Of a DNA stretch of 64,000 nucleotides, positions 39,350 through 52,761 are shown piece after piece. The stretch comes from an uncultured Kordiimonas sp. (lineage in GTDB: Bacteria; Pseudomonadota; Alphaproteobacteria; Sphingomonadales; Kordiimonadaceae), in contig CANMRM010000007.1 of the NCBI GenBank assembly GCA_947500295.1, forward strand, positions 1 through 64,000, written 5' to 3'. How positions within the stretch are numbered: position 1 is the first letter of the stretch; each line of letters begins with the position of its first letter. Below the pieces are notes generated by a model that saw only the letters and a list, made by a program, of their open reading frames with translations, was not told the DNA's origin and did not search any database. The position numbers and the translations under genes are program-made.

Positions 39350-40177
39350 TTATCGGAAGAGCCCGAGAACTGTCGAAGGTGCCTGATTGGCAATCGACAG
39401 TGCTTGTAAACCAAGCTGCTGACGTACCTGCAAGGCCTGCAGATTTGCAGACTCACTCGCGAGGTCGGCGTCAACCAGGTTACCAATACCCACTTCGAGG
39501 GCATCAGACAGCTGACTCACAAATGTTCCTTGTAGATCCAGGCGCGATGCTCCTGAACCAAGTTCGGAAAGGGCTGTATTCACGTTCGCAATCGAAGACT
39601 CGATATTGTCCACCGCTGCAGACGCTGCTGCTGCGGTTCCAATGCCTTGACTGGCGGTAATCGTTACGTTTGCGCCACCAAGAGACAGATCCTGCGCGGC
39701 AACCGTAATCGTGTTGCTGCCAGTGTCGTTGGTAATAGCCGTTACAGCGTCGCCGCCGCTTTCCACAACGTTTGTACCATTGAATTCAGCGTTAGAAACG
39801 ATCGAAGTGATCTGATCCCGAAGCTGACCAAAGTCATTGTTGAGGGAGTTACGGCTGGCCGTATCCAGACCAGAGTCTTTTGCGGCAACCGCTTTTTCCT
39901 TCAGCTCAATGAGCAGGTCAGAAACAGCTTCGCCCGCGGCGATAGCCACGTCGATAGTAGACTGAGAACGATCAAGTGAAGACTTAACCGCATTCAGGCC
40001 AGCAACGTCGCCCCGAAGAGTTTGGGCAATGGCAAATGTTGCAGCATCATCTTTCGCTGATGCAACTCTCAAACCCGTATTAATACGGTTTTGAACAGTA
40101 CCAAGGTCACTGGTAGTTTTGTTGAGGTTTTGCAGGGCTGCAAACGCACCTGCATTGGTGTTTACCGAAAAAGCCAT
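39350..40177 (-). CDS. Flagellin, tandem copy 1
   Basis: 275 residues made of the conserved D0/D1 N-terminal (MAFSVNTNAGAFAALQNLNK...INTGLRVASAKDDAA) and C-terminal (VDADLASESANLQALQVRQQLGLQALSIANQ) helices, with only a short centre. That is the compact alphaproteobacterial type (Caulobacter flagellins are ~273). It is exported through the flagellar type III system and polymerises into the filament. Ser/Thr residues in the centre (NDTGSNTITV, TITASQ) are candidate pseudaminylation sites. It is nearly identical to copy 3. The sigma-54 promoter and leader hairpins are listed separately. Confidence 0.97.
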   Translation of the reverse strand: MAFSVNTNAGAFAALQNLNKTTSDLGTVQNRINTGLRVASAKDDAATFAIAQTLRGDVAGLNAVKSSLDRSQSTIDVAIAAGEAVSDLLIELKEKAVAAKDSGLDTASRNSLNNDFGQLRDQITSIVSNAEFNGTNVVESGGDAVTAITNDTGSNTITVAAQDLSLGGANVTITASQGIGTAAAASAAVDNIESSIANVNTALSELGSGASRLDLQGTFVSQLSDALEVGIGNLVDADLASESANLQALQVRQQLGLQALSIANQAPSTVLGLFR

Positions 40178-40184
40178 TTTGCTT

Positions 40185-40236
40185 CTCCTTTTTGGAGTTT
40201 ATATCGAGCTTTTTGCTCGCAGGGACTTTTTGTCCC
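40185..40236 (-). promoter_or_regulatory. Flagellin copy 1 mRNA leader with three A5-loop hairpins
   Basis: Reading the mRNA from the predicted +1 (about 40237): GGGAC-AAAAA-GTCCC, then CGAGC-AAAAA-GCTCG, then CTCC-AAAAA-GGAG. The GGAG arm is the Shine-Dalgarno (AAGGAG, 7-8 bases before ATG). All three stems are perfect and all loops are AAAAA. Architecture shared with copies 2 and 3; see findings. Confidence 0.7.
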
Positions 40237-40247
40237 GAAAGCATATC

Positions 40248-40263
40248 TGCAATATCGGTGCCA
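40248..40263 (-). promoter_or_regulatory. Sigma-54 promoter of flagellin copy 1
   Basis: TGGCACCGATATTGCA on the minus strand matches TGGCAC-N5-TTGCA exactly, with the -24 GG and -12 GC properly spaced. It lies 71 bases before the ATG. Confidence 0.88.
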
Positions 40264-40402
40264 ATGCCGGCAAATGTTACCGATTTCATAAGTCTTTGAA
40301 ATATATAATTAAAAAAATTAGAACAGTGTATTCTGCAATCGAACAATATAGGCAGAATTTGCCGGGCAGGCAGAAGTAACCTACCGGATTGAGTGAAAGT
40401 GG

Positions 40403-40434
40403 GAAAAAATTGCCGGTGGGCCGGAGCCCACCGG
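40403..40434 (-). terminator. Terminator of flagellin copy 2
   Basis: On the minus strand CCGGTGGGC pairs with GCCCACCGG around TCCG and is followed by CAATTTTTT. It starts 8 bases after the stop codon. Confidence 0.85.
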
Positions 40435-40442
40435 GCGAATGT

Positions 40443-41270
40443 TTACTGGAATAACCCTGTAACTGCTTGCGGCGCCTGGTTGGCAATGGACAAGGCCTGA
40501 AGGCCCAGCTGTTGCTTAACCTGAAGCGCCTGCAGATTGGCAGACTCTTTGGCGAGATCTGCATCAACAAGGTTTCCAATACCCACTTCGATCGCGTCAC
40601 GAAGACGCTCGACGAACTGAGCCTGCAATTCCAACCGGTTTGCACCAGACCCCAATCGTGACAATGATGTGTTCACGTTTGCGATTGATGACTCGATGTT
40701 TGCTACTGCGGCTGATGCGCCAGCGGCCGTCCCGATCGATTGTGTAGAGGTAATCGTAACATTTCCGCCTCCCAACGATAGATCCTGTGCAGCAATAGTA
40801 ATTGTATTGCTGCCGTCATCGTTGGTAATGGCGGTGATGGCATCGCCACCATTTTCCACTACGTTGGTGCCATTGAATTCTGCATTCTGCACAATCGAGG
40901 TGATTTGGTTCCTCAGTTGAGTGAAATCATTGTTCAATGACGTCCGGCTTGCTGTATCCAGACCACCGTCTTTCGCAGCTACAGCCTTTTCTTTCATTTC
41001 GATGAGAAGGTCCGACACAGCTTCACCCGCGGCAATTGCTACATCAATGGACGACAAAGCACGATCAATGGAGCTCGTCGCGGCACGAATACCGGATACG
41101 TCAGCCCTCAATGTTTGTGCGATAGCAAAAATTGCACTGTTGTCTTTTGATGAAGCCACACTGAGCCCCGTGTTAATTGCAGTTTGCACTTTTTCCAGTT
41201 GCCCAGATGTTCGGTTCAGGTTTTGAAGCGCGTCCAGAGCTGCTGCATTTGTGTTCACTGAAAAAGTCAT
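40443..41270 (-). CDS. Flagellin, tandem copy 2
   Basis: 275 residues of the same compact D0/D1 type (MTFSVNTNAAALDALQNLNR... and ...LGLQALSIANQAPQAVTGLFQ). It is less like copies 1 and 3 than they are to each other: QLEKVQTAINTGLSVASSKDNSA, and VERLRDAIEVGIGN near the C-terminus. Multiple flagellins usually occupy different segments of the filament. Its leader has two of the conserved hairpins and its own sigma-54 promoter and terminator. Confidence 0.97.
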   Translation of the reverse strand: MTFSVNTNAAALDALQNLNRTSGQLEKVQTAINTGLSVASSKDNSAIFAIAQTLRADVSGIRAATSSIDRALSSIDVAIAAGEAVSDLLIEMKEKAVAAKDGGLDTASRTSLNNDFTQLRNQITSIVQNAEFNGTNVVENGGDAITAITNDDGSNTITIAAQDLSLGGGNVTITSTQSIGTAAGASAAVANIESSIANVNTSLSRLGSGANRLELQAQFVERLRDAIEVGIGNLVDADLAKESANLQALQVKQQLGLQALSIANQAPQAVTGLFQ

Positions 41271-41276
41271 GTGTCG

Positions 41277-41313
41277 TCTCCTTTTGAGAATGTAAATTTG
41301 AGCCTTTCTGCTC
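41277..41313 (-). promoter_or_regulatory. Flagellin copy 2 mRNA leader hairpins
   Basis: In mRNA order: GAGC-AGAAAG-GCTC (41313-41300), then TCTC-AAAAG-GAGA (41289-41277), whose GAGA arm is part of the GGAG Shine-Dalgarno. Same layout as copies 1 and 3, with one hairpin fewer. Confidence 0.6.
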
Positions 41314-41327
41314 TCGAAGACGTTAAG

Positions 41328-41343
41328 CGCAAGGACTGTGCCA
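41328..41343 (-). promoter_or_regulatory. Sigma-54 promoter of flagellin copy 2
   Basis: TGGCACAGTCCTTGCG on the minus strand; -24 GG and -12 GC are in register and TTGC is present. It lies 58 bases before the ATG. Confidence 0.87.
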
Positions 41344-41493
41344 CGGTAAGTTATTGAAAAATATGAATAATTATTGAGGTGTGCAGGAGGTCGGCAACTA
41401 AAGCTCAGAACAAGCGGAAATTAATGCCACCCTAAAGGCGAAATCTGCCGACTGAATCCTGGAACGAACCAGCGACGATAGTTAGATCGAGAT

Positions 41494-41519
41494 AAAAAAA
41501 AGGGCCCCGAAGGGCCCTT
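41494..41519 (-). terminator. Terminator of flagellin copy 3
   Basis: On the minus strand AAGGGCCC pairs with GGGCCCTT around TTCG, then a run of eight Ts. About 26 bases after the stop. Confidence 0.93.
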
Positions 41520-41544
41520 AAAGGTGTGATCCCAAAGGAACCAC

Positions 41545-42372
41545 TTACCGGAATAGTGAAAGTACTGTACTTGGTGCCTGGTTGGCGATCGACAGAGCCT
41601 GGAGGCCAAGCTGCTGTTTCACCTGCAGGGACTGCAAGTCAGCACTTGCTTGTGCAAGGTCCGCGTCCACAAGGTTACCAATACCCACTTCAATCGCATC
41701 CGAGAGCTGGCCAACAAATGTTGCCTGCAGTTCAAGTCGGGATGCGCCTGAACCAAGCTCGGATAGAGAGGTGTTCACGTTGGCAATCGAGGACTCGATG
41801 TTGTCCACAGCTGCGGATGCAGCAGCAGCAGTAGCGATTCCCTGAGTTGCGGTAATTGTGACATTGCCGCCGCCCAATGAGAGGTCCTGTGCTGCAACGG
41901 TGATTGTGTTGCTACCGGTATCATTGGTGATAGCCGTGATAGCATCGCCGCCATTTTCCACAACATTGGTACCATTGAACTCGGCATTTTGGACGATAGA
42001 GGTGATCTGATCGCGCAGCTGGCCGAAGTCATTGTTGAGCGAGTTCCGGCTGGCAGTGTCCAGGCCAGTATCTTTCGCTGCAACAGCTTTTTCTTTGAGC
42101 TCGATCAAAAGGTCCGAAACCGCTTCGCCGGCGGCGATGGCTACGTCGATAGACGAGTTGGCGCGATCCAGTGATGACTTCACGGCATTAAGGCCGGCAA
42201 CGTCACCGCGCAATGTTTGCGCAATAGCGAAGGTAGCAGCATCATCTTTTGCAGACGATACTTTCAAACCCGTGTTAATCTGGGTTTGGATCGTATTAAG
42301 GTCCCGGGTGGTTGCGTTGAGGTTTTGCAGGGCTGCAAACGCACCTGCATTGGTGTTTACAGAAAACGCCAT
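41545..42372 (-). CDS. Flagellin, tandem copy 3
   Basis: 275 residues, nearly the same as copy 1 (MAFSVNTNAGAFAALQNLNA...). I start at 42372, where the flagellin N-terminus and the GGAG ribosome site sit; the frame opens 30 codons upstream, across the leader hairpins. It is the upstream member of the three-flagellin array, downstream of flbT-flaF. It carries its own sigma-54 promoter, leader and terminator, so it is an independent transcription unit. Confidence 0.97.
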   Translation of the reverse strand: MAFSVNTNAGAFAALQNLNATTRDLNTIQTQINTGLKVSSAKDDAATFAIAQTLRGDVAGLNAVKSSLDRANSSIDVAIAAGEAVSDLLIELKEKAVAAKDTGLDTASRNSLNNDFGQLRDQITSIVQNAEFNGTNVVENGGDAITAITNDTGSNTITVAAQDLSLGGGNVTITATQGIATAAAASAAVDNIESSIANVNTSLSELGSGASRLELQATFVGQLSDAIEVGIGNLVDADLAQASADLQSLQVKQQLGLQALSIANQAPSTVLSLFR

Positions 42373-42379
42373 TGATGTA

Positions 42380-42434
42380 TCTCCATTCTGAGAGTTGTTC
42401 AGAGCTTTTTGCTCACGGAGGCCTTTTGCTTCCG
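42380..42434 (-). promoter_or_regulatory. Flagellin copy 3 mRNA leader with three hairpins
   Basis: In mRNA order from the predicted +1 (about 42435): CGGAAGC-AAAAG-GCCTCCG (7 bp, one wobble), GAGC-AAAAA-GCTC, and TCTC-AGAATG-GAGA. The last covers the Shine-Dalgarno. The stem sequences differ from copy 1 while pairing is kept, which looks like compensatory change. Confidence 0.7.
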
Positions 42435-42445
42435 AAGTCTTATCG

Positions 42446-42461
42446 AGCAGGAGGCATGCCA
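42446..42461 (-). promoter_or_regulatory. Sigma-54 promoter of flagellin copy 3
   Basis: TGGCATGCCTCCTGCT on the minus strand: GG and GC in register, TGGCA kept, -12 element CTGCT. It lies 74 bases before the ATG. Confidence 0.78.
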
Positions 42462-42859
42462 ATTTTGCCGACCGGTGCGAGAAAAATTTATAACTTTATG
42501 AAATAAAAGATAAAATTGAACACAATGGCGTTTTGTGATGGGGCGTCGGGGCAAAAGCTGCCTGATGCAGAGTGTCAGTTTTTGCCGGGTAGGGGGCTGG
42601 TTCGGTGGGAAAAATTTGCCTTACTGAGAAAAAATTGCCGACCTGTGGTTCTCTACTTTCCCTTCCTGTGGGCGCGTATAAAGAAATGCGCGAGCCTGGG
42701 ACACTGTTCACCCCATAAGGCATAGTACAGTGATCGGGCAGAGTCCGCTAAAACGCGGGTTTAGTGACTGAAAAATTATGGAAACAGGTCTGGCGGCGGC
42801 GGGACCTAGGCGCGCTTAAAAGGCGTAAAAGGCCCGGTTTCCAATCTATGGCTGGTTTT
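42462..42859. other. Intergenic region between flagellin copy 3 and flaF
   Basis: About 400 bases without a supported gene. Short frames on either strand lack ribosome sites and known motifs. No clear terminator for flaF was found. Confidence 0.5.
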
Positions 42860-43270
42860 TTACAGGGTGGCGTTAACCGGCTGCGGCGCAGGCGCGTCCG
42901 CTTGGGCACCTGCCTGCAATTTTGCCTGGTCAGCCAAGCCTTCCATAATGGTTTTGTTGATGTTGATCAGGCTTTCGATGCTTTCCTGGCCGCGCATCAC
43001 GAGAGAGGAGTGTTTGGATACCCAAATGGAGAGCGAAATAATGCCGGCGCGCAGCCCATCCGGCAATTGATTGCCTTTTGCACCGCAATCGCTGGAGAAT
43101 ACGGACCACATACGGCGGTTCCAGTCCAGTGCGGCAATGGTATCGGACGCTGTAACGGGTTTGTCTTTCACTTCTATCAGCGCATTTGTTACTTGAGCAA
43201 ACAAGCGGTATTCAACCTGGCTGGGCGTTTCAGCTGACGTCTGGGCTTTTTGATAGGCTTGATAAGACAT
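42860..43270 (-). CDS. flaF: Flagellin biosynthesis regulator FlaF
   Basis: 136 residues: MSYQAYQKAQTSAETPSQVEYRLF is the FlaF N-terminal signature, with NRRMWSVFSSDCGAKGNQLP in the centre. In Caulobacter FlaF is a flagellin secretion chaperone and promotes flagellin translation, opposing FlbT. It lies 18 bases downstream of flbT in one operon. The C-terminal ~20 residues (GAQADAPAPQPVNATL) are a disordered tail. Confidence 0.95.
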   Translation of the reverse strand: MSYQAYQKAQTSAETPSQVEYRLFAQVTNALIEVKDKPVTASDTIAALDWNRRMWSVFSSDCGAKGNQLPDGLRAGIISLSIWVSKHSSLVMRGQESIESLININKTIMEGLADQAKLQAGAQADAPAPQPVNATL

Positions 43271-43288: not shown

Positions 43289-43687
43289 CTAAGTACCTGT
43301 GTCTCCAATGCGGCTCGTTTCAAACTCAATCAGTTTTTTGCAGGTCATCAGCGCTTTATAATAGTTTTTACCCATCACATCGCGGCTGATCTGAACGCAA
43401 TTATTCACCGCCTCCGGGCTGGAGATTGCGCTCATAAACTCGGTCATCCGCAGCACAAACTCTTCATAATATTTGCTGGTGTTACCCTGATCCATATACA
43501 TCAGCATGATCGGAAAATAGATCCGTTTTGCTGGTGAATTCACATCTTCTTCCTGCAAAATGTCCTTTTCTCGTAAGATTGAAGCCTTATTGTGAACGAT
43601 CAGCGTCGTCCGCCGATCAACATTTGCAATTACTGCGCCATTTATCACCAGACGTTCGTCCGGCTTCAAAGAAAGCTTCAGCGCCAT
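43289..43687 (-). CDS. flbT: Flagellin translation repressor FlbT
   Basis: 132 residues. ALKLSLKPDERLVINGAVI at the N-terminus and the following KASILREKDILQEEDVNSPAKRIYFPIMLMYM match FlbT. In Caulobacter FlbT binds the leader of fljK flagellin mRNA and promotes its decay until the hook is finished. It is transcribed from a sigma-54 promoter 121 bases upstream and has a small hairpin (CCGAG/CTCGG, 43698-43715) just before its own GGAGG ribosome site. The structured leaders of the neighbouring flagellins are plausible targets. Confidence 0.96.
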   Translation of the reverse strand: MALKLSLKPDERLVINGAVIANVDRRTTLIVHNKASILREKDILQEEDVNSPAKRIYFPIMLMYMDQGNTSKYYEEFVLRMTEFMSAISSPEAVNNCVQISRDVMGKNYYKALMTCKKLIEFETSRIGDTGT

Positions 43688-51930: not shown

Positions 51931-52761
51931 CTATCCTTGGAAAAGCGAAAGAATAGACTGTGGCGACTGGTTGGCGATCGATAGCGCCTGAATGCCAAGC
52001 TGCTGCTTCACCTGCAGGGCCTGCAAGTTTGCACTTTCTTTGGCCAGGTCCGCATCGACGAGGTTGCCGATACCAATCTCAATCACATCCTGCAACTGAC
52101 CGGTAAAGCCTCGGCTTTGCTCCAGGGCTGTTGAACCAGAGCCAAGCTGGGTCAGAGCTGAATTCAGATTATTGATAGCGTTAGTAATATCCGTAACAGC
52201 GGCTGATGCGGTGTTTTGTGTGGAAATTGTCTGGTTAGTAGTTATTGGAATGTTGGAGCTGCTGAGCGTCAGTGTCTGGTGCGAAACTGTCAGGGTCTGT
52301 GTTGCATCAGCATTCGTGATGGCGACAATCGCATCCGTACCACCGTCGATAAGATTTGTTCCATTGAACTCCGCATTTTGAACTACAGATGTGATCTGAT
52401 CCCTTAGAGACACGAAGTCTTGACTGAGGGCATTTCTGCTTGTGGTGTCGAGCCCCTGGTCGGCAGCTGCAACTGCTTTTTCTTTCATCTCCAAAAGTAA
52501 ATCAGAGACTGCGCTCGCCGCGGCAAGGGCGACATCAACTGTTGAAATACCCCGGTCAAGAGACTGGGTAACAGCAGAAAGACCACGAAGGTCACTCCGC
52601 AACTTTTGCGCGATTGAAAATACCGCTGCATTATCTTTTGCAGACGAAATTCTCAGACCGGTATTAATTTTGGTTTGAGTGTCCTGAAGATCAGTACTCG
52701 TTTGATTCAAATTGCGCAATGCACTTAGTGCGCTGGCATTTACATTAATTGAAAAGGCCAT
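51931..52761 (-). CDS. Flagellin, separate copy 4
   Basis: 276 residues, compact type like the others, but the most divergent: MAFSINVNASALSALRNLNQ at the start and a central region rich in Ser/Thr/Asn (ADATQTLTVSHQTLTLSSSN, PITTNQTISTQNT). Termini keep the flagellin helices (LVDADLAKESANLQALQVKQ). It lies on the other side of the pse genes from the array. It has a sigma-54 promoter, but its leader lacks the A-loop hairpins and leaves the AGGAGAGG ribosome site free; a single CCGG-GTTT-CCGG stem is at 52796-52807. It may fill a special filament position. Confidence 0.96.
   Translation of the reverse strand: MAFSINVNASALSALRNLNQTSTDLQDTQTKINTGLRISSAKDNAAVFSIAQKLRSDLRGLSAVTQSLDRGISTVDVALAAASAVSDLLLEMKEKAVAAADQGLDTTSRNALSQDFVSLRDQITSVVQNAEFNGTNLIDGGTDAIVAITNADATQTLTVSHQTLTLSSSNIPITTNQTISTQNTASAAVTDITNAINNLNSALTQLGSGSTALEQSRGFTGQLQDVIEIGIGNLVDADLAKESANLQALQVKQQLGIQALSIANQSPQSILSLFQG

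Follow-up and report, generated by a model that had tools for sequence, protein, structure and literature searches.

In a 64,000-nucleotide stretch of DNA from an uncultured Kordiimonas sp. (contig CANMRM010000007.1, positions 1 to 64,000, referred to here as the window), the leaders of three tandem structural flagellin genes each carry a chain of two or three small hairpins, in which an A-rich loop is held constant on stems that change in sequence and the last hairpin takes up the Shine-Dalgarno sequence of the gene. The same chain is found upstream of structural flagellin genes in the organism's own order, in the Maricaulales and in the Caulobacterales. Because the stems covary, and because the element was found again in an independent sample of Alphaproteobacteria, the view that these hairpins are a conserved, covarying RNA element of flagellin leaders is well supported. 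Many alphaproteobacterial families have it. The element is most likely the FlbT operator of the structural flagellin mRNAs, and the whole of this explanation, a multi-hairpin RNA operator read by FlbT with the Shine-Dalgarno hairpin as its switch, is given a probability of about two in three.

The passages on FlbT in reviews state that the protein binds the 5' untranslated regions of flagellin mRNAs and represses until the hook-basal body has been made. In Caulobacter it is described there as binding FljJ alone among the flagellins, the pair repressing the other five until FljJ is secreted; the section of a review that deals with FlbT offers no recognition motif for it and calls the mechanism unresolved. 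The action of FlbT on flagellin leaders has been known since 2000; what would be new, should it be confirmed, is the recognition code. A defined loop on interchangeable stems would make recognition by FlbT testable with few RNA mutants, and the element suggests how one flagellin can be spared and offers a signature with which probable FlbT targets could be searched for throughout the Alphaproteobacteria.

The hairpin chain and its covariation

The leaders of flagellin copies 1, 2 and 3 hold three, two and three hairpins, respectively (Table 1), and in every case the last of them, H3, pairs the Shine-Dalgarno sequence with an upstream CTCC or TCTC. With start sites predicted by taking the C of the GG-N10-GC promoter element as -12, +1 falls at 40237 for copy 1 and at 42435 for copy 3; the first hairpin begins at +2 in both of these leaders and at +5 in copy 2. 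A sequence-only reading of this stretch had described such a chain in the three leaders, with the first hairpin of copies 1 and 3 within one base of the predicted +1, only the last two hairpin types in copy 2, and the pairing of the Shine-Dalgarno sequence just mentioned, all of which is borne out by the sequence and by a hairpin scan. The loops that it listed, AAAAA, AAAAG and AGAAAG, are all present, and the list is here refined to ARAA plus 0 to 2 bases (H3 of copy 3 has AGAATG). The same scan finds no A-loop hairpin in the leader of the fourth flagellin gene of the window. An alternative to H3 is seen in the predicted minimum-energy fold of the copy 1 leader (window positions 40160-40200), in which codons 2-5 take up the Shine-Dalgarno sequence and an AAAATG loop contains the start codon.

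How far does this pattern exceed chance? Among 230 different flagellin leaders, which come from loci of the organism's own order, the Maricaulales and the Caulobacterales and are mutually related rather than independent, hairpins with a five-base ARAAN loop on a stem of at least 4 pairs number 264, as against 3.65 +/- 1.85 in 20 dinucleotide shuffles. Control stretches hold 17 in 227 pieces from farther upstream and 7 in 230 coding pieces. One ARAA hairpin is met in 9.05 of 230 shuffled leaders and two in 0.2 of 230, and the density of ARAA hairpins (stem of at least 4, loop of 4-6) over both strands of the whole window is 0.33 per kb. The dominant five-base loops are AAAAT, AAAAG, AAAAA, AAAAC and AGAAN, and the five-base loops are closed by C-G in 236 of 262 instances. 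Where a leader has both a hairpin and a promoter site, the first ARAAN hairpin begins 12-15 nucleotides past the C of the promoter element in 68 of 132 cases, and a further 21 leaders have a hairpin and no recognised promoter site. Between the tandem flagellins of five loci (L095, L113, L118, L132 and L140), the downstream genes keep an A-loop hairpin together with a CCGT-AGAA-ACGG hairpin and have no recognised promoter; the Shine-Dalgarno sequence is located farther downstream there, and the loop hairpin is retained without covering it.

Covariation was assessed in 119 leaders at no more than 85 percent identity. RNAalifold on the MAFFT alignment recovered H2 only, and a hand-written structure and loop-anchored tests were used thereafter; some rows of alignment A1 contain N. 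The covariation score of the three hairpins together is 0.420, compared with 0.207 when the letters of the 3' arms are reshuffled (none of 500 as high) and 0.024-0.156 when the arms are slid, with 85.2 percent of cells paired against 71.0 percent. In a tree-aware test, where the substitutions of each column were replayed 500 times on the flagellin tree, the H1 pairs 71-84, 72-83 and 73-82 and the H2 pair 114-126 stand above all 500 replays and the H2 pair 115-125 above all but one. The remaining H1 and H2 pairs give p values of 0.012 to 0.042, except for the closing pair of H1 (0.41), and the seven strongest of the 378 stem-column pairs are all stem pairs of H1 or H2.

A second kind of evidence is provided by exchanging the arms of hairpins between leaders, with the loop length floating from 4 to 6, a null that is equally free, duplicate arms removed and no correction for phylogeny. 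The arms that belong together form 3.71 contiguous pairs in H1 compared with 2.14 for swapped arms (70 distinct), 3.49 compared with 2.22 in H2 (84) and 3.05 compared with 2.40 in H3 (58 distinct; the highest of 2000 permutations being 2.76). The H3 arms co-vary, for instance as CTTC/GAAG, GTTT/AAAC, CCGT/ACGG and CTCC/GGAG. Covariation among related flagellin leaders, which had been put forward as a check on the hairpins, is thus found for H1 and H2 in the tree-aware test and for all three in the arm swaps, and the variation of stems between the three copies with pairing kept is matched in the relatives.

Distribution over flagellins and genomes

Which flagellins carry the chain can be read from a FastTree phylogeny of 224 of them. 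Leaders without A-loop hairpins make up 2 percent of a 95-member structural clade of the organism's own order and 5 percent of a 62-member clade of Maricaulales and Caulobacterales. The proportions are reversed in the clade of the fourth flagellin, where 38 of 44 leaders have no A-loop hairpin and 6 have one, and in a divergent, FljJ-like clade of 19, where 16 have none, two have one and one has two. The Caulobacterales members of the latter clade we take to be FljJ on the basis of their divergence and of gene order. Within three Caulobacterales loci (L134, L149 and L152) the structural genes have one or two hairpins, except for L152_4154, which has none (stems of 3), and no A-loop hairpin occurs at the divergent FljJ-like gene. 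Orthology of the fourth flagellin with FljJ was considered and set aside: the two belong to separate supported clades, and a joint clade is near rejection (approximately unbiased test, p-AU 0.053, on a quick tree of 52 chosen proteins).

A covariance model restricted to what is transcribed, built from 43 leaders over 63 positions, recognises, in the organism's own genome, copy 1 at E 3.6e-16, copy 3 at 1.5e-13 (42373-42436) and copy 2 weakly at 0.036, the next place having 0.10. Across 25 chosen genomes of the order, 53 of the 54 matches at E <=1e-3 end at a flagellin start, the exception being G020:C1:978425. The sample was then that of the whole class, 385 evenly drawn alphaproteobacterial genomes, 135 of them with FlbT, and 51, the organism's own included, have a match at E <=0.01. 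For the 28 other genomes with a match at E <=1e-3 the best match is at a flagellin in 21 (for one of these, G059, the gene start used in the assignment is truncated where the contig ends), at the flbT operon in two and elsewhere in five. FlbT is present in all 23 genomes in which the match sits at a flagellin or at the flbT operon. The five matches elsewhere (G324, G303, G075, G086 and G307) have E values of 4.8e-5 or worse, two of their genomes have FlbT, and they are taken as chance. At the two flbT operons (L178, 1441-2221, in G250; L177 in G342) a short open reading frame and then flbT come after an A-loop leader, which has a sigma-54-like site. The reading frame, of 81 amino acids in L178 and similar in L177, has no NCBIfam match, and flaF comes next in L178; autoregulation of FlbT is a possible interpretation of this arrangement.

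The association with FlbT is also seen independently of the model. At least one ARAA hairpin is present in the sampled flagellin leaders of 52 of 80 genomes with FlbT as against 1 of 45 without it (Fisher p 2e-13, kinship uncorrected) or, counted by leader, in 67 of 133 as against 1 of 45, where shuffles lead one to expect 5.5 and 1.0. The sampling behind this comparison is uneven, in that genomes without FlbT supplied one leader each from the best-scoring flagellin matches and genomes with FlbT up to four; two of the 180 fetched loci gave no usable leader. Confined to the last 45 nucleotides, the count is 49 hairpins in the 133 FlbT leaders (1.8 expected) and one in the 45 others (0.4 expected). 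The 49 hairpins have 46 different sequences, which implies that new stems have arisen many times around one and the same loop. The proposal of the sequence-only reading, that the hairpins form an FlbT-responsive RNA element, is therefore partly supported: the conserved RNA element stands, and the link to FlbT has passed two tests able to oppose it, namely co-occurrence with FlbT and the divergent flagellins, a kind to which the Caulobacter co-repressor belongs and whose leaders are mostly without such hairpins. The contact itself we infer.

A candidate FlbT operator, its rivals and its relatives

In the proposed mechanism the leader would be a cis-acting RNA operator composed of two or three tandem hairpins, each showing the loop C-ARAAN-G or a variant of it that has 4-6 bases. 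Fundamental to this would be the loop as the recognition feature, the stems merely displaying it; a constant A-rich loop on changing stems is compatible with the loop as the contact point. FlbT, perhaps oligomeric and with a regulatory flagellin as co-repressor, would grip several loops together, with H1 and H2 acting as stable docking sites. The weak H3 carries the Shine-Dalgarno sequence in its 3' arm, and binding of FlbT would clamp H3 and block initiation until the hook is complete; the clamped leader would probably also favour decay of the mRNA. Taken alone, the segments have median energies of -4.8 (H1), -5.6 (H2) and -2.5 kcal/mol (H3). A hairpin as weak as H3 would by itself hardly stop ribosomes and a protein holding its loop could, and this is why H3 is envisaged as the switch of a multivalent operator. 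Flagellin genes without the element would escape repression and, in Kordiimonas, be made first; the lack of the element in divergent flagellins agrees with this, since synthesis of a co-repressor has to come before the rest.

A number of observations weigh against this reading. The stability of the whole leader is not unusual in copy 2 (z -0.86) or copy 3 (z 0.11), copy 1 having z -3.92, and in copies 1 and 2 the predicted fold of minimum energy has the Shine-Dalgarno sequence paired with other bases. The H3 pairs are not significant in the tree-aware test (p 0.07 to 0.28), whose fixed register is shifted by one base in H3 of the TCTC-AGAATG-GAGA type, and pairs changed on both sides do not exceed shuffles (12 vs 10.7). 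No ARAA hairpin is seen in the leaders sampled from 28 of the 80 FlbT genomes, or in 66 of the 133 leaders, and many leaders of the class sample have a single hairpin only. Phylogeny and flagellar type are confounders of FlbT presence, and the co-occurrence of FlbT with the element is an association and not proof of contact. The exempt flagellins form two clades rather than one, and because these are distinct the exemption may have arisen twice. Finally, FlbT of Brucella is described, in the source passage concerned with it, as an activator.

Could the hairpins be 5' stability elements, shielding an abundant flagellin mRNA, with the A-rich loop merely a good cap and FlbT uninvolved? In 68 of 132 leaders the first hairpin starts at about +1 to +4, where a 5' protective stem-loop would be expected. 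Stability alone would put no constraint on the loop, which is nevertheless what stays constant, and leaders of genomes without FlbT do have hairpins, but none of 60 has an ARAA loop at a stem of at least 5. The tie of the last hairpin to the Shine-Dalgarno sequence and the scarcity of A-loop hairpins in the leaders of divergent flagellins also count against shielding, which is considered unlikely. An explanation very unlikely on the evidence is that the inverted repeats act as DNA, bound beside the sigma-54 promoter by a transcription factor such as FlbD or IHF. The repeats are close to the promoter element, and in the fixed alignment the mismatches in H1 do not favour RNA (A.C 26, G.U 21); loop-anchored mismatches favour the RNA strand (G.U 32 vs A.C 11, p 0.002, from related sequences). 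Recognition as DNA also sits poorly with stems that share no common sequence and an H3 tied to the Shine-Dalgarno sequence, as well as with some elements that, by eye, are intergenic and for which no separate sigma-54 site is recognised.

The distal face of Hfq prefers A-R-N repeats, and the loops might be read by this or another RNA-binding protein, or by an antisense RNA, instead of by FlbT. Hfq is to be expected in Alphaproteobacteria without FlbT as well, where the hairpins are nearly absent (1 of 45), and it prefers single strands, whereas here short loops are maintained on conserved stems. A reader other than FlbT is hence quite unlikely, even though ARAA agrees with what a review gives as the preference of Hfq, Poly(A)/ARN.

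Control by FlbT and FljJ in Caulobacter has in common with the window flbT, flaF and sigma-54 flagellins, the leader as the target and a divergent flagellin set apart from the controlled ones; it differs in that the account available gives no motif, whereas Kordiimonas has tandem, covarying hairpins with a constant ARAA loop. Anderson and Gober in 2000 and Ardissone in 2020 reportedly dealt with the control of flagellin mRNA 5' untranslated regions by Caulobacter FlbT, with FljJ. The element was not found described in those parts of the literature that were searched, and the work of 2000 may describe leader loops. No Rfam family reached its threshold in 14 loci, and the leaders also stayed without a match when the window stretch and 8 loci were scanned permissively. 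The flg-Rhizobiales RNA (RF01736) is likewise described as three stem-loops in an alphaproteobacterial flagellar leader; unlike the present element, it has GGGA in its repeated loops and a sole over-cut-off match among 38 genomes, located before flgF, and its covariance model has no match to the leaders tested.

The CsrA (RsmA)/FliW system also has several hairpin sites per leader, with one over the Shine-Dalgarno sequence, and couples flagellin synthesis to assembly. CsrA, as outlined in the source consulted, reads GGA in loops, whereas the loop in these leaders is ARAA; in the three leaders GGA is not present in the hairpin loops (AAAAN or AGAAN) and sits in the 3' arm of H3. No match to CsrA (PF02599) was found in the organism's own genome. 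An analogy between CsrA control of flagellin and FlaF/FlbT is drawn in a passage of PMC4894983.

Might the two proteins be related? The first 45 residues of FlbT can be aligned with CsrA, and the N-terminus reads as CsrA-like by eye. Profile comparison with hhalign gives 29, 14, 41, 30 (full length) and 72 percent (N-terminus), depending on the profile used; the comparison behind the last two values has a score of 25.1, compared with at most 18.2 in 200 column shuffles. An AlphaFold model of FlbT has five short strands and then helices (mean predicted local distance difference test score, pLDDT, 85). Residues 47-132 are predicted as a four-helix bundle with many bundle matches (best Z 9.8, 2.0 A over 80), among them 1orj, a chaperone of flagellar export (Z 7.9, 3.0 A over 85); this match would be in line with flagellin binding by FlbT, though the arrangement is a common one. 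The N-terminal part has no fold match above Z 2.9, and Foldseek returned none at E 0.001 or better. CsrA is a strand-swapped dimer, and may be kin to FlbT despite its absence from the FlbT matches listed in Pfam, PDB-sequence and structure searches. In a sample of 190 genomes (assumed to be G000, G032, G038 and G059-G245; phylogeny uncorrected) one has both proteins, 63 FlbT only, 35 CsrA only and 91 neither, and among the flagellin-bearing genomes these numbers are 1, 40, 31 and 17. Kinship of FlbT with CsrA is a lead and not a finding, for which the profile comparison is suggestive. The wider picture is doubtful: FlbT would be a far-diverged CsrA-like protein with a flagellin-binding helical tail, ARAA arrays would be its operator code and the array-free flagellin the checkpoint signal. 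If true, FlbT/ARAA would couple filament synthesis to hook assembly in place of CsrA/GGA across the Alphaproteobacteria.

The flagellin locus

The minus strand of the window encodes flbT, flaF, the three tandem flagellins and flaG, with the fourth, divergent flagellin some 9.5 kb away. Both flbT and flaF are directly upstream of the flagellin genes, and the genome thus has flagellin together with both, as in the Caulobacter type. A GG-N10-GC promoter element is seen by eye upstream of all four flagellins.

Table 1. Genes, promoter elements and leader hairpins of the flagellin locus in window coordinates.
Feature	Sequence	Position	Strand	Basis or remark
flbT		43289..43687	-	PF07378, E 3e-44; proposed reader of the hairpins
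flaF		42860..43270	-	PF07309, E 1.2e-32
Structural flagellin copy 1		39350..40177	-	
Structural flagellin copy 2		40443..41270	-	
Structural flagellin copy 3		41545..42372	-	
Divergent fourth flagellin		51931..52761	-	61 percent identity to copy 1; leader without A-loop hairpin
Sigma-54-type promoter element, copy 1	GG-N10-GC	40249..40263	-	pattern match only
Sigma-54-type promoter element, copy 2		41329..41343	-	pattern match only
Sigma-54-type promoter element, copy 3		42447..42461	-	pattern match only
Copy 1 H1	GGGAC-AAAAA-GTCCC	40236-40222	-	hairpin scan; covariation in relatives
Copy 1 H2	CGAGC-AAAAA-GCTCG	40219-40205	-	hairpin scan; covariation in relatives
Copy 1 H3	CTCC-AAAAA-GGAG	40197-40185	-	3' arm GGAG is the Shine-Dalgarno sequence; own-arm pairing in relatives
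Copy 2 hairpin, H2 type	GAGC-AGAAAG-GCTC	41313-41300	-	hairpin scan
Copy 2 H3	TCTC-AAAAG-GAGA	41289-41277	-	pairs the Shine-Dalgarno sequence; hairpin scan
Copy 3 H1	CGGAAGC-AAAAG-GCCTCCG	42434-42416	-	by eye; one internal A.C mismatch, so outside the perfect-stem list
Copy 3 H2	GAGC-AAAAA-GCTC	42414-42402	-	hairpin scan
Copy 3 H3	TCTC-AGAATG-GAGA	42393-42380	-	pairs the Shine-Dalgarno sequence; hairpin scan

A fifth flagellin (L005, contig C3 of the same genome), with 51 percent identity to copy 1, has neither a recognised sigma-54 site nor an A-loop hairpin. Terminator-like minus-strand hairpins are found between the flagellin genes at 40413-40434 and 41500-41519 and suggest separate flagellin transcripts; the scan gave 7 such sites compared with 4.9 +/- 2.3 in shuffles, and single sites may be chance. 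The words CGGCAA and TTGCCG, picked out by eye, are repeated at 42460-42690, ahead of copy 3, and close to the promoters of the other flagellins, and are perhaps activator sites of the FlbD type.

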